Shown here: positions 7,772 to 18,570 of the stretch, piece by piece
Layout: each line of letters opens with the position of its first letter
How positions within the stretch are numbered: the stretch's first letter is position 1
From: Armatimonadota bacterium
Lineage (GTDB): Bacteria > Armatimonadota > UBA5829 > DSUL01
Direction: 5' to 3'
Length of the DNA stretch: 64,000 nt
Assembly (NCBI GenBank): GCA_025998755.1
Contig: AP024674.1
Location: forward strand, 496,001-560,000
The notes under the pieces: model-generated
What the model saw: the letters and a program-made list of their open reading frames with translations, nothing else
Databases searched by the model: none
What the model was told of the DNA's origin: nothing
Translations under genes and position numbers: made by a program

Positions 7772-8980
7772 TCAATACATCAGGTAGCGTGCACGTTCGT
7801 CCAGCCAGCGATGCTCGTCCGGCGTCAGCCGGGCGTCCAGGTCCGCCGGAGTGGACGCAGGATTGTCCACCCATTCCCGCAGGAAGGTTCCTCCGGAAAG
7901 CAGGTCTATCGCCAGCCGCTCCGTCTCGTACTCATACGGGAAGACCCGCCAGATCTCGTAATCCGGATGCAGCGTCCGGACAGCCTTCAGAATGAGCGCC
8001 GCAATGCGATAGGGACGGAACTCCTCATGGCGGTAAAGATGCGTGTCCGTGTGGATCTGCAGCCCGGAACAGAGCTTCCCGGCGTGCTTGTGGAAAGTGG
8101 GTTCGAAGAAGCAGGGACGGATCAGGCATCCTTCCAGCCACTCGGGAGCCATCTCGCGCATCAGGTGCAGAATTCCGGCCATGTCTACGTCCGGCGCCCC
8201 CACTACTTCCAGTGATGTGGTCGTCCCTCTTCCTTCCGAGAGGGTGGTGCCCTCGAAAAGCACCGTCCCCGGAAAGCATCGCGCCATGTTGAGGCTGGAT
8301 GCGTTGGGGCTGGGGTTCACCCACGGAAGCTCCGCCAGCGGCCAGCCGAACCCCGGTGCCGCGTCGGGATCGTATCCCGATAGGGGTATGACTCTGAGCT
8401 GGATATCCAATCCTGCTGTGTCCGCGTACCAGCGGGCCAGCTCCCCCAGTGTCAGACCGTGGCGCATCAGAAGCGGACCGATGCCCACCATACTCTCCCA
8501 GCCTGGCTCCAGGATGCTGCCCTCAGCAGGGCGGCCTGCCGGGTTGGGGCGGTCCAGGATCCAGACGGGTTTGCCCGCCTGCGCACAGGCCTCCAGCATG
8601 TAGCAAGTGGTCGTCACGAATGTGTAGATTCGCGTGCCGATGTCCTGCAGGTCCACCAGCAGTATCTCAAAGGAGTCGAGCATCTGTGGGGTGGGGCGCC
8701 TGTGCTCCCCGTACAGGCTGAAGACCGGGATACCCAGGCGGGGGTCCACGTAGTCGGGGGACTCGATCATATTGTCCTGCTTGTCCCCGCGCATGCCGTG
8801 CTGCGGCCCGAAAGCGCAGGTGACCCTCAGCCCTTCGGCGCCAGCCAGAGCATCCAGGGTATGAGCTCCGTCCCTCGTCAGAGACGCCGGATGCCCCAGT
8901 ATTCCAATCCGTGTCCCACGCAACTCGGCAAGGGCCGCGTCGTCTTCCAGCAGATTGTCAATCCCGCATTTGACAGCCAA
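7772..8980 (-). CDS. namZ: Exo-beta-N-acetylmuramidase NamZ family (DUF1343)
   Basis: The 402-residue protein matches the DUF1343/NamZ family (GH171), in which Bacillus NamZ removes terminal MurNAc from peptidoglycan fragments. Conserved stretches are FGPQHGMRGDKQDN, GIPVFSLYGEHRRPT, LVDLQDIGTRIYTF, WILDRPNPAGR, PSPNASSL and the signature FEGTTLSEGRGTT. No signal peptide is seen, so it is probably cytoplasmic. The start is TTG at 8980, set by GGAGGG seven bases upstream. A second family member lies at 47341-48510 with similarity along the whole length, so this genome has at least two. It lies between a convergent permease and the ParB-like gene, whose terminator ends about 100 bases away. Confidence 0.88.
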   Translation of the reverse strand: MAVKCGIDNLLEDDAALAELRGTRIGILGHPASLTRDGAHTLDALAGAEGLRVTCAFGPQHGMRGDKQDNMIESPDYVDPRLGIPVFSLYGEHRRPTPQMLDSFEILLVDLQDIGTRIYTFVTTTCYMLEACAQAGKPVWILDRPNPAGRPAEGSILEPGWESMVGIGPLLMRHGLTLGELARWYADTAGLDIQLRVIPLSGYDPDAAPGFGWPLAELPWVNPSPNASSLNMARCFPGTVLFEGTTLSEGRGTTTSLEVVGAPDVDMAGILHLMREMAPEWLEGCLIRPCFFEPTFHKHAGKLCSGLQIHTDTHLYRHEEFRPYRIAALILKAVRTLHPDYEIWRVFPYEYETERLAIDLLSGGTFLREWVDNPASTPADLDARLTPDEHRWLDERARYLMY

Positions 8981-9114: not shown

Positions 9115-9149
9115 GGAGAGAGGACGACGATCATGCAGCTCTTCGCGCT

Positions 9150-10283
9150 TCAAACTTGGGAGAGTAATACTGGCATTTGTAGCTTCGCGAGGTTTCGCTT
9201 CGGCACCTCGGCTTCCGGAATGGGGATGTGCGTCTCGTCTATGGAACACATCTGATACTGCCGGTCGTAGTGGCCGCAATCATCGCAGCGCTTCATGACG
9301 CTCCAGCAGACGCTGCACCGCGGCGTATCCACCAGCTCGATGCGTCCGCACAGAGCGCAGTTGATGTAGATTTCGTGGAACTCCGAGGACTCCGACAGCA
9401 GGGACCGGAGCTTCGAGATAAAAGTCTTCAGCGTGTCGCTCAAAGCCGTTGCGCTCGCGAGCAGCGTGCTGCATTCCTCCCGCGACAGGAAGTCCACCAT
9501 GCGCGGGTCCATCTGGTCGTTCAGCGTGTCCATGGCCCGGCCGACGGCTGCCGCCTGCGACTGAGCGGTCTTGGGCTTGAAAGGACGCTTCTTCTGCGTG
9601 CCGCGCTCACGGGCCGTGCTGCGGATGATCTCCTCCGCAACGCGCAGTGGCACCCTGAGAAGAGCCTCTTTCTTGTCTGGGAAGTTGATGATCCCGTGGA
9701 CGAAGCGTTGAGTCTCTTCGATTGAGAGCCGTTCTTCCTTTATCTTCCGCGCCAGGCGCACCTGGCTGACAGGATCTTCGGAGAGGGCTTTCAAGACCAG
9801 AGCATGTCCTTCCCCGAACGGGTTGTCGCCGGGGCGGTCCACCATCTCGTCCAGAACGGCCTGAGGCAGGTCTAGGATCTCCAGGTGGCGCTTGATGGTG
9901 GCTTCCGCTTTGCCCAGCATTTTGGCCACCTGTTCCAGCGAATGCACCTCTAGCAGACCCTCGATGGCGCGCGCCCGCTCGACGGGGTTAAGATCCTCGC
10001 GCTGGAAGTTCTCCAGTAGCGCGTCGACCTTTGCGTCTTCTTCGCTGACCTCCCGAATGATGGCAGGGATCTCGGTCAGGCCGGCAAGGCGGCTTGCGCG
10101 ATATCGCCGCTCGCCCATAATGATCTTGTACTTGCCGTCCGGCAGCGGGCGGACGACAATGGGCTCCAGCACTCCTCTCTCTCGGATGGACTGGGCAAGC
10201 TCCTCCAGCGTCTCCTGGTAGAAGGTTTTCCGGGGCTGATCCTCGGTCGGAATGATGTCGTCCAGATTGAGATGTTGAAGCAT
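9150..10283 (-). CDS. ParB/Spo0J-like nuclease-fold protein with Cys-rich C-terminus
   Basis: The 377-residue protein has a ParB N-terminal CTP-binding fold (IVVRPLPDGKYKIIMGERRYRA, with the C-box GERRYRA at about residues 57-63) and a ParB helix-turn-helix (VAKMLGKAEATIKRHLEIL, about residues 118-136). Canonical ParB ends in a short dimerisation helix pair. Here the last 70 residues instead hold seven cysteines, as three CxxC pairs plus one (residues 309/312, 323/326, 333/336, 346), which look like zinc ribbons. No parA is adjacent and no parS palindrome was recognised. ATG at 10283 begins the conserved domain; a longer frame upstream is unsupported. It may be a chromosomal ParB, a Noc-like protein or a regulator using the ParB fold. 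Confidence 0.82.
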   Translation of the reverse strand: MLQHLNLDDIIPTEDQPRKTFYQETLEELAQSIRERGVLEPIVVRPLPDGKYKIIMGERRYRASRLAGLTEIPAIIREVSEEDAKVDALLENFQREDLNPVERARAIEGLLEVHSLEQVAKMLGKAEATIKRHLEILDLPQAVLDEMVDRPGDNPFGEGHALVLKALSEDPVSQVRLARKIKEERLSIEETQRFVHGIINFPDKKEALLRVPLRVAEEIIRSTARERGTQKKRPFKPKTAQSQAAAVGRAMDTLNDQMDPRMVDFLSREECSTLLASATALSDTLKTFISKLRSLLSESSEFHEIYINCALCGRIELVDTPRCSVCWSVMKRCDDCGHYDRQYQMCSIDETHIPIPEAEVPKRNLAKLQMPVLLSQV

Positions 10284-10424
10284 TAGGGGCAAGTCTCCGA
10301 CGCCACACGCGCTGTCGCGAGGGCGCAAGCAGCCGAAACGTTCTTCTCCATAGTGTTTCTTCCGTACGGAAAGGCCGGCTTGTGATGTGGAATGATCCAC
10401 GGTTCAATGTTCGGAGAGGTGAAG

Positions 10425-10499: not shown

Positions 10500-11366
10500 A
10501 TGCTTTCATATATGCCAGACAGTCACCGCAAGCCTAAGAAGGCATACCTGGATCCGGATTTTCTGCAGAGCCCGGACGCACGCGTCCTTCGGATTCTGGC
10601 CGAGTATCTCGGCCCACTGAGGAAGTTCCGGGACGAGAAGGTCAAGGATACCATCGTATTCTACGGTTCCGCCCGCACGCCGGACCCCGAGCACGCCCGG
10701 AAGGCTCTGGAGCGGGCACGCAGGCGGCTGCGTCAGCATCCCGAGGATGAGAAGCTGCGCCAGGAGCTGGAGCAAGCGGAGATCGGCGTGCAGATGTCCC
10801 GCTACTACGATGAAGCCCGCACGCTCGCGCGAATGCTGACGCAGTGGGCGCTTGCCCGGCCCGGGCCGTGGAACCGCTACCTGATCTGCTCCGGAGGCGG
10901 TCCGGGCATTATGGAGGCTGCCAACCGGGGAGCGGCAGAGGCGGGCGGAAAGACGGTGGGGTTGACCATCAGCCTACCGTTCGAGGAGCAGGGCAACTCC
11001 TACATCACCGAAAACCTGGCAATGGAGTTCCATTACTTCTTTATGCGGAAGTACTGGTTCGTCTATATGGCCCGGGCTCTCGTCATCTTTCCCGGCGGCT
11101 TTGGGACGCTGGACGAGATGATGGACCTGCTTACTCTGTTGCAGACGCGTAAAATCCGGCGCCGGCTGCCGGTTGTGATGTACGGCAGCGAATTCTGGAA
11201 TGAGGTGCTGAATCTTCAGGCGCTGGTCAAGTGGGGCACCATCAGTCCGCAGGATTTGGACTTGGTGCACTTCTGCGACGATCCGCAGTCGGCGTTCGAT
11301 CACCTGGTGGCTGCGTTGGAGGGAAAGGACCGCAAGCCTGTTCCAAGCCGTCCCGCGGTGGGCTAG
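10500..11366 (+). CDS. LOG-family Rossmann-fold nucleotide-binding protein (TIGR00730-type)
   Basis: Members with proven activity are cytokinin-riboside or nucleotide 5'-monophosphate phosphoribohydrolases, which release a base from an NMP. The two family signatures are present: SGGGPGIMEAANRGA (about residue 130) and FPGGFGTLDEMMDL (about residue 197). The 288-residue form carries an extra charged helical stretch between the first strand (IVFYGSARTPDP) and the nucleotide site, rich in R, E and Q and probably coiled coil. This places it in the longer group usually called lysine decarboxylase-like by old misannotation. The start is ATG at 10500 after GAGAGAGG; ATG at 10512 is an alternative. 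The gene converges with the GT4 gene, with only four bases between stops. Confidence 0.87.
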   Translation: MLSYMPDSHRKPKKAYLDPDFLQSPDARVLRILAEYLGPLRKFRDEKVKDTIVFYGSARTPDPEHARKALERARRRLRQHPEDEKLRQELEQAEIGVQMSRYYDEARTLARMLTQWALARPGPWNRYLICSGGGPGIMEAANRGAAEAGGKTVGLTISLPFEEQGNSYITENLAMEFHYFFMRKYWFVYMARALVIFPGGFGTLDEMMDLLTLLQTRKIRRRLPVVMYGSEFWNEVLNLQALVKWGTISPQDLDLVHFCDDPQSAFDHLVAALEGKDRKPVPSRPAVG

Positions 11367-12552: not shown

Positions 12553-14051
12553 CGGCTCACCGGCGCAAGAACCCGCTCCGCCCACTGCCGGTCGAAGCGG
12601 CATTCGCCTCCGTCCTGGTAGTATTGGCGGGCTGCCTCTTTTGCCGCTGCTGCCCATTCCTCAAGAGCGCCCGGGGAGGACAGCACCTCGTCTACCTTTT
12701 CCGGAAGATCATCGGGATGTGTGAACAGGGGGTCCCGGAAGCATTCAATGTCGCCAGTGTAGTACCATCCCTCCCGCCAGACAAAGAGAGCAGGCAATCC
12801 GCAGGCGGCGGCCGTCACCACCGCCCCACTGAACATCCCCGCAACAACCGAGCTAACCGCAAGATTATTCTCCAGGCTGGATCCCTGAGGCGAGAACTCC
12901 ACTTTGCCGGGGTAGCGCTCCAGGAGTTGCTGCCATCCTTCTCCGGTCTTGTTGTCGGGGTGGGGACGGATGATCACCCGGTCCAGGTTGCGGCATCGTT
13001 CCAGAGCGCGCTCAACCGCATCAGGGAACTCCCGGTTCTGCTCATGCATACCCAGCAGCTGCGAGCCGCGACGGGTATTCTGGTCTATAACCAGGAGCGT
13101 ACGCGGCTGGCGCTGCGGCCGCAGAGTGGGTAGCGCGTCATATAGCGACCCGGATGGCAGATAGTCTGCACACACTGCCTTCCGGGACGTGCGTTGCGCA
13201 ATCTCTGTATCCAGTCTTTTCGCGAAAGCTGCCGAGGCCGGACCAAAACATATGTAGCGGTCGGCCAGAATGGGAAACCAGGTGGGCGAGCAGATGACGC
13301 CGTGTTGGGTCGTCGTCACTGTCGTTGGGCGGTCCAGCTCACTTTCGGCAATGCTGGCTCCCAAGGGTGTGAAGTGGCAGCGCACGATGGCTGTCTCAAA
13401 CTCCAGAGTCTCCCTGAGTCTATGCCAGGCCCGTCGCACCGCTGCGATGCCGGCCATCGGATCGTAAGCTTCGTCGGATAGCTCAAGATCCCCCGGCAGT
13501 ATCTCCGCCATCTTGTGCCAATCTTCGTATGCGGTTAGGCGTCCCTGGGCGGCCATCACCCGCGCGGCCAGACTCCCGGTGGGAGGCGGCAGATCCATCA
13601 GAGTGACGCGATCCTCCCGTCCTGAACAGCGAACGGACTCTTGAATGTGAGCACGCTCTTCATCATTTCCGCATACCAGATAGAGCACAGACCGACCGGT
13701 TTCGGCCACGGCGCAAACGATCCGGGACATAAGCCGGTACTCTGTCTGGCGGTATCGGCACTCTCCCACAATCAGAACATCACAACGCGGCTTCGCCCCC
13801 GCGAAGGCAGCTTTCAGGGATGGATACCACCCGAAGAGGCCTGCCAAGAGGCGGGCACGGCGGGGTGGTGGAAGACAGCTCCGCGTCCCGTCTACGGGGT
13901 GGATGTGCGTTTCCAGAAGCGCAAAGTAGGGATACAGCCGTCTGCCTTCGGACGAGCCCCAGAGTTCCAACTGCGCCCTTGCAGCCAGAGCGGCAGTGGC
14001 TCCGGGAGGGTAGTGGAAGGCCCCGGGTGGGCTGCCGGCTGCTAAGTTCAC
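12549..14051 (-). CDS. Putative CMP-nonulosonate-dependent glycosyltransferase (GT-B, HP motif)
   Basis: The 500-residue protein shows no close match I can name, but has the layout of GT-B enzymes that use CMP-sugars. In the C-terminal half there is an HP motif in IIRPHPDNKTG (about residues 360-370) and a serine pair in LAVSSVVAGMFSG (residues 400-401), followed by CGLPALFVW. A QHG motif (TTTQHGVI, about 247-253) comes before. Bacterial sialyltransferases and Kdo transferases share HP and serine motifs for CMP binding. The gene overlaps the NeuB-type synthase by four bases (ATGA) and the GT4 gene likewise. Its position directly after CMP-nonulosonate synthesis supports the inferred donor. 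The acceptor is unknown, and activity is unproven. Confidence 0.6.
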   Translation of the reverse strand: MNLAAGSPPGAFHYPPGATAALAARAQLELWGSSEGRRLYPYFALLETHIHPVDGTRSCLPPPRRARLLAGLFGWYPSLKAAFAGAKPRCDVLIVGECRYRQTEYRLMSRIVCAVAETGRSVLYLVCGNDEERAHIQESVRCSGREDRVTLMDLPPPTGSLAARVMAAQGRLTAYEDWHKMAEILPGDLELSDEAYDPMAGIAAVRRAWHRLRETLEFETAIVRCHFTPLGASIAESELDRPTTVTTTQHGVICSPTWFPILADRYICFGPASAAFAKRLDTEIAQRTSRKAVCADYLPSGSLYDALPTLRPQRQPRTLLVIDQNTRRGSQLLGMHEQNREFPDAVERALERCRNLDRVIIRPHPDNKTGEGWQQLLERYPGKVEFSPQGSSLENNLAVSSVVAGMFSGAVVTAAACGLPALFVWREGWYYTGDIECFRDPLFTHPDDLPEKVDEVLSSPGALEEWAAAAKEAARQYYQDGGECRFDRQWAERVLAPVSR

Positions 14052-14923
14052 CGACCGGCTCTCCTGAGTTTCTGGCGGATCGGCAACTCGCTTTCGTACA
14101 CCCGTTTAACCCCATCCCCCAGCGCGGATTCGATCACCCGGATATCGCGGACCAGCCGCACCAGCCCGCCTGTCTCGACGGATGCGGCCTGGTCGGTGCC
14201 CCACATCGCCCGGTCCAGCGTAATGTGCCGTTCAACGAAGCAGGCTCCCAGAGTCACTGCAGCCAGAGTGGTTTGCAGACCCACCTCGTGGCCGGAGTAT
14301 CCCACGGGAACGTCAAACTCCGCCGCCAGTGTCTGGATCATCCGCAGGTTGAGCTCTTCCGGACGGCAGGGGTAGGTGCTGGTGGCGTGCGCCAGGAGCG
14401 TCCGGTCCCGCGGGAGCCAGCTTACGCACTCGCGAATCTCCTCCATCGTGGACATCCCGGTGGAAACGATAAGCGGCTTGCCCTTTGCCGCCGTGTATTC
14501 CACCAGAGGGCGGTCCGTAAGGGAAGCCGAGGCGATCTTATAACAGGGCGGGTCGAACTGCTCGATGAAATCCACGGAAGGTTCGTCCCAGCAGGAGGCA
14601 AACCACATGATCCCCTTCTGCCGGCAGTAGGAGTCTATCTCCCGGTATTCCTGTTCTCCAAATTCAACCCGGTGGCGGTACTCCAGGTAGGTGATCAGTC
14701 CCCAAGGAGTCTCCCGGGGAATGTCCCTCTGCTCCGGAGGAACGCACAGTTCCGGGGTGCGCTTCTGGAACTTGACGGCGTCGCACCCGGCCAGAGCCGC
14801 GGCATCAATCAGCTTCTTTGCAAGTTCCAGGTCACCGTTGTGATTTATGCCGATCTCCGCAATGATGAAGACCGGTTGCCCCGGACCTACCGGGCGGTCA
14901 CTTATGCTAACACAGCGAGCCAA
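14048..14923 (-). CDS. neuB: NeuB-family nonulosonate (sialic acid/Kdn-type) synthase lacking the SAF domain
   Basis: It condenses phosphoenolpyruvate with a mannosamine- or mannose-type sugar to make a nine-carbon nonulosonic acid or its 9-phosphate. The TIM-barrel motifs are clear: VFIIAEIGINHNGDLELA (about residue 18), DAVKFQKR, CYKIASASLTDRPL, VSTGMSTMEEI, VGYSGHEVG and VERHITLDRAMWGTDQAASVE with metal-ligand histidines. At 291 residues it ends just after the barrel. NeuB, LegI and PseI usually have about 340-350 residues with a C-terminal antifreeze-like SAF domain, and that is absent here. It overlaps the upstream fused gene by 17 bases and the downstream transferase by four. No UDP-GlcNAc 2-epimerase (NeuC) is near, which fits a mannose-6-phosphate substrate; that is inference. 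Confidence 0.87.
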   Translation of the reverse strand: MARCVSISDRPVGPGQPVFIIAEIGINHNGDLELAKKLIDAAALAGCDAVKFQKRTPELCVPPEQRDIPRETPWGLITYLEYRHRVEFGEQEYREIDSYCRQKGIMWFASCWDEPSVDFIEQFDPPCYKIASASLTDRPLVEYTAAKGKPLIVSTGMSTMEEIRECVSWLPRDRTLLAHATSTYPCRPEELNLRMIQTLAAEFDVPVGYSGHEVGLQTTLAAVTLGACFVERHITLDRAMWGTDQAASVETGGLVRLVRDIRVIESALGDGVKRVYESELPIRQKLRRAGR

Positions 14924-16097
14924 GCTGCCTCTCCCTCTGCTGCAGGATCAGATCGCACAGCTCCCGGATGGCTCCCTGTCCTCCGCGCTTCGACAGAACG
15001 AAACGCGCGGAAGGCTTCACATCCGGATGAGCGTCTGCCACCACCACCGGGCATCCCACGAAACGCAGGCACTCCAGGTCGTTCACGTCATTTCCCACGT
15101 AAACGGTCGACTCAGGCGGGATGCCCCTTTCCTCGAGCCATTTCTCAAGGGCGGCTAGCTTTCGTTCCACTCCCTGGAGACACTCCACCTTCAGCTTCCG
15201 GCAACGCGCCGCCACCACAGGATTCTCTTCGGACGAGAGCACCAGGATGTCCAGCCCCTGCCGCCGCAGTGCCACAATCCCCATTCCGTCTCCTCGGCTG
15301 CAGGCTACAGCCTCCCTGCCGTCCTCCATCACGTAGACGCGGTTGTCCGTCAACACTCCGTCGAAGTCCATCACCAGAGCCCGGACCGGGTCCGGCAAAG
15401 CCTGCATTTTGCGCAACTGGCCCCGCTGACGCATCAGGACTTCGGCTATCTCAACGTCCACTGGCTCGTCTATCTCCAGGCACCGTTCACCGTCCACCAC
15501 GTACAGCACTGTCTTGCCAAAGAACCGGTGCCTTGCGGCCAGGAATCCCTCCGTGCGCATCACGTAGACCGCTCCGGTCTCGCGATACTGGGGCTCCATC
15601 TCTTGCCTTCGCGGACGGAATGACTTGTCGTGATTGATGCCCTCGGCAGAGTTATCCGGCATGTTCCGCCATAGGAATGAGTGGAACGCGGCAACCGAAA
15701 GGCAACTGTCCGCGTTCTCCTCCAGCAGTTTCCGGACGCATCCATCTATGTCATCGCTGGTGGTGAGGGGGGATGTGCACTGCAGGAAAACCAGCAGATC
15801 CGGCCGGTAGGACTCATGCCGATCCAGATGCTCCAGCACGTGCAGAAGGGCCGACTCAGAAGACGCCCTGTCGCCACTGATCTCCTCGGGTCTCCAGACG
15901 ACCTCCGCCCCGTGCTTCTCGGAGACGATGGCGATCTCGGCGTCGTCCGTGGATACCACCACCCGGGAGACCGTTTCCGCCTGAAGCGCGGCCTCGATGG
16001 TCGAGGCGATTAGGGGCTTCCCTGCAAGCGGAAGAAGGTTCTTGCGCGGAACACTCTTCGATCCGCCCCGGGCGGGGATGATGGCCAGGTTTTCCAT
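14907..16097 (-). CDS. Fused CMP-nonulosonate cytidylyltransferase and HAD (KdsC-like) phosphatase
   Basis: Two enzymes lie in one 396-residue chain. Residues 1-228 are a CMP-sialate/Kdn synthetase: IPARGGSKSVPRKN (7-20), LQCTSPL (105-111), and the YRETGAVYVM and EIDEPVDVEIAE stretches. Residues 238-390 are a KdsC-type HAD phosphatase with nucleophile and acid/base aspartates in VMDFDGVLTDN (D244, D246), the LVLSSE motif, lysine in GVERKLAAL and the late aspartates in VGNDVNDLE. All HAD catalytic positions look intact, so it should hydrolyse the 9-phosphate before activation with CTP. Vertebrate CMAS has the same domain order. Next in the operon is the synthase. ATG at 16097 follows the gene for Wzt by 50 bases. 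Confidence 0.85.
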   Translation of the reverse strand: MENLAIIPARGGSKSVPRKNLLPLAGKPLIASTIEAALQAETVSRVVVSTDDAEIAIVSEKHGAEVVWRPEEISGDRASSESALLHVLEHLDRHESYRPDLLVFLQCTSPLTTSDDIDGCVRKLLEENADSCLSVAAFHSFLWRNMPDNSAEGINHDKSFRPRRQEMEPQYRETGAVYVMRTEGFLAARHRFFGKTVLYVVDGERCLEIDEPVDVEIAEVLMRQRGQLRKMQALPDPVRALVMDFDGVLTDNRVYVMEDGREAVACSRGDGMGIVALRRQGLDILVLSSEENPVVAARCRKLKVECLQGVERKLAALEKWLEERGIPPESTVYVGNDVNDLECLRFVGCPVVVADAHPDVKPSARFVLSKRGGQGAIRELCDLILQQRERQLGSLC

Positions 16098-16147: not shown

Positions 16148-17494
16148 CTACGGCCGGGTCTCCTGTTCCCTGATGGACACAGCGCTCTGGCTGATCTGTC
16201 CCGCCGGACTATCCCGCTCCCCTTCGGCCGAAATCTGGCACGCAAACCGCACGGAGCCCCAGCTCGGGTGCCAGTAGGATGTCCAGTCCTCCGTTACGGC
16301 TGGCTCCACCACGAACGGCAGGAATTCGCGGACATAGTCGTAGTCCCGGAAACAGTCACGGATAAAGAAGCCCGCCACGTATTCGCCCGACGCCAGCTGT
16401 GCGCCCTTGATCCTCAGTTTCAGATAGCTTTCTCCCTGTTTCAGCTCCCCGGGAAGTTCTGCCTGGGCAACTCCCAAACAGCGCTGTCCCGGTACCCCGA
16501 TGTAGGCGCCCAGCAACAGTCCTCTGGCGCTCTCGGCGGCGTTCACCGCCAGGCCAAAACAGATATCGTCCGTTTCTCGCACAGGGTGAGTCAGAACGTC
16601 AACGCGCGTGAATCGGATGGAATCGCCAAGCGCCGAGAATGAGCGGGGCAGGGTGGTCATGTCCACGCTGGTGGCCGAGTGCACCGGTGAGACGCCCATA
16701 TACCGGGCGATCGCGCTGGCGACAGGCAGACCTGCCGTTGCACGTCCGGCCTCGATAAACACACACTGCGTGCAAAAACTGCGTACGGTGTTCATGTTAT
16801 GGCTGACGAATAACACCGTACGGCCGCTGGCGGCCACGTCTTGCATCTTGCCGAGGCATTTCTTCTGGAACTCGGCATCGCCGACGGCCAGTACTTCGTC
16901 CACCACCAGGATCTCCGGATCCAGATGAGCCGCCACCGCGAACGCAAGGCGCACATACATCCCCGACGAGTAGCGTTTCACGGGCGTATCAATGAAGCGC
17001 TCTACCTCCGAGAACTCCACAATATCGTCAAAGCGCGCTTCAATTTCTCGTGTGCGCATCCCGAGAATGGCGCCGTTCAGGAAGATATTCTCCCGCCCGG
17101 TCAGGTCCGGGTGAAAGCCCGTTCCCACTTCCAGCAGCGACGCCACCCTCCCGCGCATGACGATGCGTCCTTCCGTAGGCTCGGTGATGCGGGAAAGGAT
17201 TTTCAAAAGAGTGCTCTTGCCGGCGCCGTTCTTTCCGATGACACCCAGCACCTCGCCTTCCCGCACATCAAAAGTCACATCCTTCAACGCCCAGAACGTG
17301 TTGGGCTCGGGCCCCGCCTGAGGATGATCGCGTGGGATCATCAGTTCTTTCTCTCCCACGCGCTTCAAAGGGTCTTCGCGTCCCAGCATCAGCGCCCATC
17401 GCCGCTTCAGGGCGTCCTGAAACGTGCCCGCCCCTATGGACCCGAGGCGGTAAAGCTTGGAAACGTTGCGGACTTCTATGATGGGTCTGGACAC
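16148..17494 (-). CDS. wzt: ABC exporter ATPase with C-terminal carbohydrate-recognition domain (Wzt type)
   Basis: The 448-residue ATPase powers export of an undecaprenyl-linked polysaccharide. Motifs, numbered from the chosen GTG: Walker A IGKNGAGKST (86-95), an LEVGTGFHPDLTGRENI Q-loop region, signature YSSGM (175-179), Walker B ILVVDE (195-200) and switch VSHNMN. The first 60 residues hold the long loop typical of TagH/Wzt ATPases. Residues 275-430 form an extra beta-rich domain like the Wzt C-domain that recognises the glycan end before export. The GTG is one base after the permease stop, so coupling is likely; a longer frame into the permease is improbable. Nucleotide and glycan binding residues appear complete. 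Confidence 0.9.
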   Translation of the reverse strand: MSRPIIEVRNVSKLYRLGSIGAGTFQDALKRRWALMLGREDPLKRVGEKELMIPRDHPQAGPEPNTFWALKDVTFDVREGEVLGVIGKNGAGKSTLLKILSRITEPTEGRIVMRGRVASLLEVGTGFHPDLTGRENIFLNGAILGMRTREIEARFDDIVEFSEVERFIDTPVKRYSSGMYVRLAFAVAAHLDPEILVVDEVLAVGDAEFQKKCLGKMQDVAASGRTVLFVSHNMNTVRSFCTQCVFIEAGRATAGLPVASAIARYMGVSPVHSATSVDMTTLPRSFSALGDSIRFTRVDVLTHPVRETDDICFGLAVNAAESARGLLLGAYIGVPGQRCLGVAQAELPGELKQGESYLKLRIKGAQLASGEYVAGFFIRDCFRDYDYVREFLPFVVEPAVTEDWTSYWHPSWGSVRFACQISAEGERDSPAGQISQSAVSIREQETRP

Positions 17495-17495
17495 G

Positions 17496-18350
17496 TCAAA
17501 TATAGTCCACGAACTTCCGCTCGATCCTGCCGAACGCTGCGATTCCCGTTGCAAACAGCACCAGCGTAATCGCGGCGGACACTCCGATGTGCAGGGGCGT
17601 CAGCGCAGCCTTTCCCAGGAATGCGTAACGCGTGCCTTCCACCACCGCCACCATCGGATTCAGGGCTGCCCACAATCGGAATCGCTCCGGGACCTCAGAT
17701 AGCGGCACGATGATGAACGATGCATACATCCAGATCTGCACGATGAAAGACATCAGATGCTGCAGATCGCGATATTGGGAGGTGATGACTGCCAGCCACA
17801 ACCCCACACCTCCCGCGAGCATGGCCGTCTGGACGATCATCAGCGGAAACAGCAGTACGGCCCAGTTGGCCTGCATGACGGCTCCTGCCTCGGTTGCGAA
17901 ACGATAATAGGCCCAGAAAGCCAGAAACGTCAGAAACTGAAGCGCCAACGCGATGAGATTGGAAAGAAGGATCGAGAGCGGAACCACCAGCCGCGGGAAA
18001 TACACCTTGGTGAACAGGTTGGAGTTCACGATCAGGCAGGAGCCGATGGCAGGAAGGGACTGCGCAAAGTAGCTCCAGAGCAGCAGCCCGGCCAGATAAA
18101 ACGGAACGTGCGGCATCCCGTCGGTTCCCAGCCGCGCCACATTCCCGAAGATGACCGTGAACACGAGGGTGGTCAGAAGCGGCTGGATCACGAACCACGC
18201 AGGTCCCAACACTGTTTGCTTGTATTTCGAGACGAAGTCCCTTCGTACAAGCAGAAGTGTCAGGTCCCGATAGTGGAGCAGTTCCCTCCAGCGGATGTCA
18301 AACCAGCCTTTGCTGGGCTCGATGACAAGCTCGTAGTTTGTCGCGGGCAA
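17496..18350 (-). CDS. wzm: ABC-2 polysaccharide export permease (Wzm type)
   Basis: The inner-membrane partner of the Wzt-like ATPase has six predicted hydrophobic helices over about 284 residues. The N-terminal cytoplasmic region YELVIEPSKGWFDIRWRELLHYRDL, with VRRDFVSKYKQTVLGPAWFVIQPL after it, is the family hallmark. The C-terminal ALNPMVAVVEGTRYAFLG is also typical. TTG at 18350 is chosen because AGGTAGGA precedes it and the product then starts where relatives do. A GTG at 18443 would add 31 residues with no family similarity. It is the first gene of a six-gene minus-strand operon. No convincing promoter was seen in the 220 bases upstream. Confidence 0.88.
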   Translation of the reverse strand: MPATNYELVIEPSKGWFDIRWRELLHYRDLTLLLVRRDFVSKYKQTVLGPAWFVIQPLLTTLVFTVIFGNVARLGTDGMPHVPFYLAGLLLWSYFAQSLPAIGSCLIVNSNLFTKVYFPRLVVPLSILLSNLIALALQFLTFLAFWAYYRFATEAGAVMQANWAVLLFPLMIVQTAMLAGGVGLWLAVITSQYRDLQHLMSFIVQIWMYASFIIVPLSEVPERFRLWAALNPMVAVVEGTRYAFLGKAALTPLHIGVSAAITLVLFATGIAAFGRIERKFVDYI

Positions 18351-18570
18351 TCCTACCTCGCTAGACTCGCCGGCGCGAGCCGGCCGCGGTGCCGGGGAGA
18401 AAAGAGTGCAAGCACTGCAGCCAGCCTCCAACCCCCATCTCACAGATTCATTCCATCATACCCACGTCTCACTGATACGCGAGTTAGAGACAGGAAAGTT
18501 GCATAGCGGTTGGTGTTCTGGCAGCCCTTCCCAGGAGCGCAGCGCAGTGTCCCTCCTGCAAGATGCTCTC

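Follow-up and report, generated by a model that had tools for sequence, protein, structure and literature searches.

The window, the whole 64 kb stretch of Armatimonadota DNA that was analysed, carries on its minus strand a gene for an orphan ParB-type protein with an unusual, cysteine-rich C-terminus (Table 1). Translation is likely to start at the ATG rather than at the upstream GTG, because the stretch common to most homologues begins there. A search across the genome contigs with the full window protein gave a single match, in one genus-mate, whose homologue is 96% identical. The two flanking genes, coding for a LOG-type and a NamZ protein, are common to the window and this genus-mate; the LOG-type gene adjoins the orphan parB in both and at none of the other loci compared, and the gene neighbourhood of ParBs bearing the cysteine module is not conserved across families.

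Table 1. Features of the orphan parB locus, in window coordinates.
Feature	Position	Strand	Basis and remarks
Orphan ParB open reading frame	9150..10400	-	416 aa from GTG at 10400; likely start ATG 10283, giving 377 aa
ParB_N, CTPase fold	10002..10280	-	Pfam PF02195, E 1.3e-33; motifs QPR, GERRYRA, ENFQR
HTH_ParB	9696..9998	-	Pfam, E 4.6e-13
Recognition-helix region, GKAEATIKRHLEILDLP	9864..9929	-	Charge-altered relative to parS-binding ParB; residue roles after the part of PMC7383237 used
Segment before the cysteines, probably helical, possible dimerisation element	9360..9566	-	Aligns among homologues; low-confidence genus-mate model
Seven in-frame cysteines of the eight-cysteine module (CALC, CSVC, CDDC, C)	9246..9359	-	Sequence; spacing matched in homologues
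Out-of-frame tail with the eighth cysteine, SETSRSYKCQYYSPKFEARRAA, then stop	9128..9199	-	Shifted-frame translation, profile match
Divergent neighbour, Lysine_decarbox/LOG-type protein	10500..11366	+	Pfam, E 6.5e-30
Downstream neighbour, NamZ exo-beta-N-acetylmuramidase	7772..8980	-	Pfam, E 5.6e-71

We consider first the domains that the protein shares with other ParBs. ParB_N scores 115.4 bits on the window protein against a cut-off of 26.3, and Pfam finds ParB_N together with HTH_ParB in all 18 homologues. The motifs QPR, GERR.RA and EN.QR are invariant across the 18 sequences of one alignment (A2), and GERR.R and EN.QR are also found in the window protein. The CTPase motif and the helix-turn-helix, which the initial annotation had called intact, are so by the E-values of Table 1 and by the presence of the nucleotide motifs. 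The C-terminal domain ParB_C (PF23552) has no match in the window protein in a Pfam search with an E limit of 10, in which the HMMER filters drop most weak matches, and it is absent from the families found at E <=0.01 in the 18 homologues. A CxxC-rich tail stands there, which agrees with the earlier proposal of a metal-type module in place of ParB_C.

The codons of the seven module cysteines run from 9359 down to 9246, exactly where three CxxC pairs and one further cysteine had been annotated; another cysteine (9471-9473) lies outside the module. Seven as the natural number, on the other hand, has to be corrected, since homologues keep eight, and the eighth lies beyond a one-base frameshift. 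In an alignment of 36 full-length sequences including the window, the module ends in SYKC..Y, which is missing from the window reading frame and present in the genus-mate, and the exact spacing Cx2Cx10Cx2Cx6Cx2Cx9Cx23C recurs in 35 of the 36, the exception being the window. A second alignment (A1), of 22 sequences without that of the window, shows no variation at any of the eight cysteines. A pattern arising by chance is excluded, because the exact spacing is so widely shared and all eight positions are invariant in A1; judged by this conservation, the natural module is one of eight cysteines. Aligned with the genus-mate at the DNA level, the window differs by one base in length near 9200; this puts the reading frame out of step, and what follows in the new frame is the tail given in Table 1; the C-terminal profile matches this out-of-frame tail separately in the window's own genome (G000:C1:505137-505199, E 4e-4). 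The seven-cysteine form stems from an error in the assembly or from a mutation of very recent date.

If the frameshift is real, the gene may be decaying here, with the eighth cysteine removed and the window protein non-functional or altered, as the shifted frame of the deposited sequence among 35 intact homologues would allow. Over the 361 codons before the shift, however, 73 synonymous and 4 nonsynonymous changes separate the window gene from that of the genus-mate (dN/dS 0.014), and the orphan parB is thus under strong purifying selection. With this ratio and a tail that is still readable, any loss of function must be very recent, and a single-base assembly error explains the frameshift equally well. 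We thus give little credence to decay.

The intact module probably binds zinc, to judge from its cysteine pattern. Pfam zinc families all stay below their cut-offs for the module in the window protein, in the homologues or in the copies fused to enzymes described below, and the commonest sub-threshold matches are the zinc ribbons PF18912 (DZR_2) and PF12773 (DZR). DZR_2 scores 15.3 bits on the window C-terminus against a cut-off of 27 and matches 19 of 22 homologues weakly (best E 0.023). The zinc-ribbon search proposed in the initial annotation is thus negative at the cut-off. Double zinc ribbons have paired CxxC knuckles like those of the module, but their matches fall below cut-off and leave its second half (C-x9-C-x23-C, S.S..C..Y) uncovered. 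Two Cys4 metal sites would be consistent with the eight invariant cysteines, of which the first four look like a zinc ribbon and the second four could instead hold iron-sulphur. When the C-terminal alignments were searched against the sequences of the PDB, the matches were weak or partial, the best for the module being MIOS (E 0.003, 34 positions); a match to a designed PPR structure (E 1.4e-5) was dismissed as built on three weak repeats. An AlphaFold2 model covering the last 137 residues of the genus-mate protein, aligned with the window, has a pLDDT of 49 and is too poor to use. About 60 residues precede the cysteines and are helical in this low-confidence model; they may form a dimerisation element, the mode of dimerisation being a guess because the model is unusable.

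The place of the protein in the cell is best approached through the second ParB of the same genome. The genome is one contig of 3.29 Mb with two ParB_N matches, and the other ParB, at 2.51 Mb, has parA alongside, a ParB_C match (E 9.8e-6) and the ParA-binding motif LGKGL. The genome-wide parS search that had been suggested was run: the sole perfect parS sits inside this 2.51 Mb parB, and allowing up to three mismatches adds one further place, at 1.42 Mb (three mismatches; reversed control 7). There is no parA relative within the window, and the annotated lack of an adjacent parA or parS is borne out, the nearest perfect parS being that at 2.51 Mb. No parA relative was found in 58 loci of the window protein's family either (counting duplicates; most extend only some 1.5 kb to either side of the gene), and the same search succeeds in 12 of 15 canonical-type loci, with none in the fetched stretches of L041, L047 and L150. 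Of 43 genomes encoding a full-length homologue (best E <=3.3e-67), 40 have more than one ParB match, a few of the extra matches being further copies or pieces of the module-bearing family itself, some in family f17. Several genomes of that family carry two or three module-bearing ParBs: G013 (C4, C1, C3), G079, G093, G118, G144 and G149.

The relationship between the two kinds of ParB was addressed with a maximum-likelihood tree of 71 rows, comprising 36 module-bearing proteins, 15 module-less orphans and 15 canonical-type ParBs, both sets of 15 hand-picked from the locus results, and 5 Spo0J, ParB and Noc reference rows. The 36 module-bearing proteins form one clade (99/97), and the phylum's 15 module-less orphans form a second (100/99). 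A further split (100/98) separates these two clades from the canonical-type, Spo0J, ParB and Noc rows. The branches of several canonical and reference rows, that of Noc included, are long, which leaves the order among these rows unsure. The orphan ParB is an extra paralogue whose ancestry is separate from that of the parAB-parS ParB of the same genome. The protein could be nothing more than the phylum's standard chromosomal ParB, as the presence of ParB_N and HTH_ParB might suggest, but this has next to no chance of being right: this candidate is excluded by the complete parA-parB-parS elsewhere in the genome and by the separate clade, and the one finding that the initial annotation had named as fatal to its view, a standard ParB with such a C-terminus, does not apply. 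Most rows of the module clade group by host family, so inheritance has apparently been vertical. The ParA-binding motif (LG-R/K-GL) is found in none of the 36 module-bearing proteins and none of the 15 module-less orphans; among the canonical-type rows it is found in 9 of 15 by a strict pattern and in 11 by a loose one. The earlier suggestion had been of a ParB-fold regulator or an unusual segregation protein; its first half stands, as an orphan clamp or regulator, and a segregation role is less likely, because the genome has a complete parAB-parS at another place and none of the 36 module-bearing proteins has the ParA-binding motif.

The C-terminal profile from A1 matches 63 of 291 genomes of the phylum. 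The module is borne by a ParB in 47 of these (best match E <=3.1e-44), although in G135 the ParB part is lost at a contig end, and the matches in the remaining 16 genomes are weak. The distribution of the 47 is patchy, with 21 of 28 genomes in the window's class and 26 of 263 elsewhere in the phylum. The phylum's second orphan clade, represented by 15 loci (L132-L141, L143-L146 and L151), has no cysteine module and has K replacing G201 in 15/15; the parA search found nothing in 14 of these loci and a weak parA-like match beside L135 (E 3.2e-7).

The recognition helix of the module clade is also altered. The parS contacts of Caulobacter ParB include R173 and G201, both described as absolutely conserved among ParBs, and the DNA contacts common to ParB and Noc are Q162, G170, K171, S172, N178 and R204 (PMC7383237, in the part used here). 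In the module clade, R173 becomes E or D in 35/36 rows (E in the window), N178 becomes R in 36/36, window included, R181 and position 184 each become E or D in 36/36, and K171 becomes V in 33/36; G170 (36/36), G201 (32/36) and R204 (25/36) are kept. Canonical-type rows keep R173, N178 and R181 in 15/15. As judged from these residues, the helix of the module clade matches neither the R..G of ParB nor the QKKR of Noc, and we infer from its alteration a DNA site other than parS.

In a search for such a site, the surroundings of the gene in 36 loci were screened for 14-bp palindromes with no more than one mismatched pair, and none was common across families; close relatives share a few palindromes near the gene, by descent. 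Among perfect palindromes in 884 kb (27% of the genome), a search that degenerate sites would escape, no 14-bp palindrome occurs more than twice (two occur twice) and no 16-bp palindrome more than once. The one frequent gapped inverted repeat in the genome is that of two CRISPR-like arrays, recognised by eye and lying in opposite orientation at G000:C1 1149158-1151344 and from 1160676 to at least 1163861; the repeat core is CGGCCTCGAAAGGCCG, and CGGCCTNNNNAGGCCG matches 77 times in the genome.

These data bear on whether the protein acts in Noc-type nucleoid occlusion, that is, as a CTP clamp at many dispersed sites that restrains cell division. The best PDB sequence match is indeed Noc (7ng0, E 1.7e-37), in a near tie with Spo0J (1vz0, 2.5e-37), and a paralogue beside a separate, resident ParABS is the arrangement of Noc-bearing bacteria. 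The NCBIfam model nucleoid_noc (TIGR04285) scores 166.3 bits on the orphan ParB, but this is far under its curated cut-off of 315 and is equalled by the general parB_part (167, cut-off 58). The Noc residues Q173, K179, K184 and R201, whose roles are taken from the part of PMC7383237 used, are absent, the window having E, H, D and G; the tree, in which the Noc branch is long, does not place the orphan ParB with Noc, and the C-terminal cysteine module is a further difference. The 14-bp NBS core is matched with at most two mismatches at seven places (reversed control 0), the best, with one mismatch, being at C1:485712, about 19 kb from the gene; roughly 10 would be expected at equal base frequencies, however, so that the seven are about what chance would give, and dispersed perfect palindromes were not found in the 27% of the genome searched. 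We regard a Noc-type role as unlikely.

Gene neighbourhoods suggest another role, that of a DNA-uptake or competence accessory, with the clamp acting on incoming or newly integrated DNA together with the ComEC channel. In 11/36 loci the next gene upstream, on the same strand, codes for a metallo-beta-lactamase, and a ComEC-type Competence gene precedes that one (named after the Pfam matches at a single locus, L051); in a longer stretch from G101, also of the window's class, the same pair lies beyond one opposite-strand gene. All ComEC-linked loci, however, belong to the window's class, which supplies 20/36 loci. The pair was found neither at the window itself nor at the 16 loci from outside the class, most of which have less than 1.5 kb of upstream sequence, so cases may be missed. 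The orphan ParB is also conserved where the ComEC linkage is absent, and we find this role distinctly improbable. In four f17 loci (L022, L055, L057 and L066) a divergent DUF4446-like gene (Pfam on L055) lies upstream. Each of these neighbour linkages is confined to certain lineages, and the family as a whole is not explained by them.

Our best reading, held with moderate confidence, is that of an orphan ParB-type clamp with a non-parS site and a two-site metal module, working as a regulator or organiser. Our confidence in the cellular function alone is lower than in this reading as a whole; the protein probably has a chromosome-organising or regulatory role, as a type of protein that has yet to be studied. 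The comparison with known systems can be set out as follows. First of all, the protein shares with the chromosomal ParB/Spo0J of ParABS (PF02195, PF17762, PF23552) the CTPase fold, its motifs and the HTH domain, but has no adjacent parA or parS, no ParA-binding motif and no ParB_C match, has instead an altered recognition helix and an eight-cysteine tail, and coexists with a real ParABS. Second, the module-less orphan clade (L132, L134 and L141, for example) is likewise orphan, without the ParA-binding motif and on the same side of the tree (100/98), and differs in having no cysteine-module match and in the K for G201. Third, KorB of RK2, VirB of Shigella and BisD are carried by plasmids or mobile elements. 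They are ParB-related CTP clamps that control gene expression (PMC11790492 and PMC10770331 for KorB and VirB; a reference of PMC12704722 for BisD), and no metal module is mentioned for them in the parts of these sources used.

Mechanistically, the orphan ParB would bind CTP, for which sequence is described as an unreliable guide (PMC12704722, in the part used). It would dimerise through the pre-cysteine segment, the metal module or both, would be loaded by its altered recognition helix onto a DNA site other than parS, and would then close as a sliding clamp. The double metal site would dock a partner or grip DNA, and the clamp would work in the manner of Noc, KorB or VirB, as a regulator or organiser outside ParA-driven segregation.

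The module is also found beyond ParB. In five genomes (L083, L084, L085, L086 and L087) it is fused to GDPD enzymes, N-terminal to the enzyme domain, the identity of which rests on Pfam for L084, L085 and L086 (E 3.3e-35, 2.1e-37 and 1.1e-44) and on inspection by eye for the other two. Some of the weak matches are to small proteins that apparently stand alone, in family f22 as well as in f42 and f43; two copies look truncated (L097, L098), and a weak match in G066 is probably unrelated. When eight ParB-borne and ten other copies are aligned, all eight cysteines and R, D, P, S and S are invariant, and a wider profile (A4) matches 65 of the 291 genomes. No module was found in plasmids or phages (E <=1) or in viral contigs. 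The viral contigs do hold eight loci with ParB relatives. Two of the apparently stand-alone proteins, L093 and L094, lie about 10 kb apart, one gene being convergent with a relA/spoT-like gene and the other adjoining an enolase-like gene (names by eye). The module is a candidate new domain family.

Given its settings in the phylum, alone, on ParB and on glycerophosphodiester phosphodiesterases, a more elaborate version can be imagined, in which a metal- or redox-responsive, CTP-driven sliding clamp has its own site and in which an undescribed eight-cysteine module, portable in the phylum, controls closing or partner docking; we put this forward as possible, though doubtful. ParB-type CTP switches are a young field. 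A 2025 survey of them tabulates fusions by Pfam domain (PMC12704722) and could thus miss this module, which has no Pfam entry; in the part of the survey used, zinc appears solely in a reference. Among the matches listed in the ParB literature, titles and abstract openings describe no such cysteine-tailed ParB. Under the favoured reading as an orphan regulatory clamp, the clade has changed both its C-terminal domain and its parS-reading residues beside a normal ParABS, and would thus represent a natural case of a segregation clamp that has been repurposed; the metal and the partner of the eight-cysteine module are directly testable.

Elsewhere in the window, look-alikes of a NeuB-type synthase and of a CMP-sugar synthetase/phosphatase occupy 14048-14923 and 14907-16097, and ABC transporter-like genes adjoin them at 16148-18443, all named by eye.
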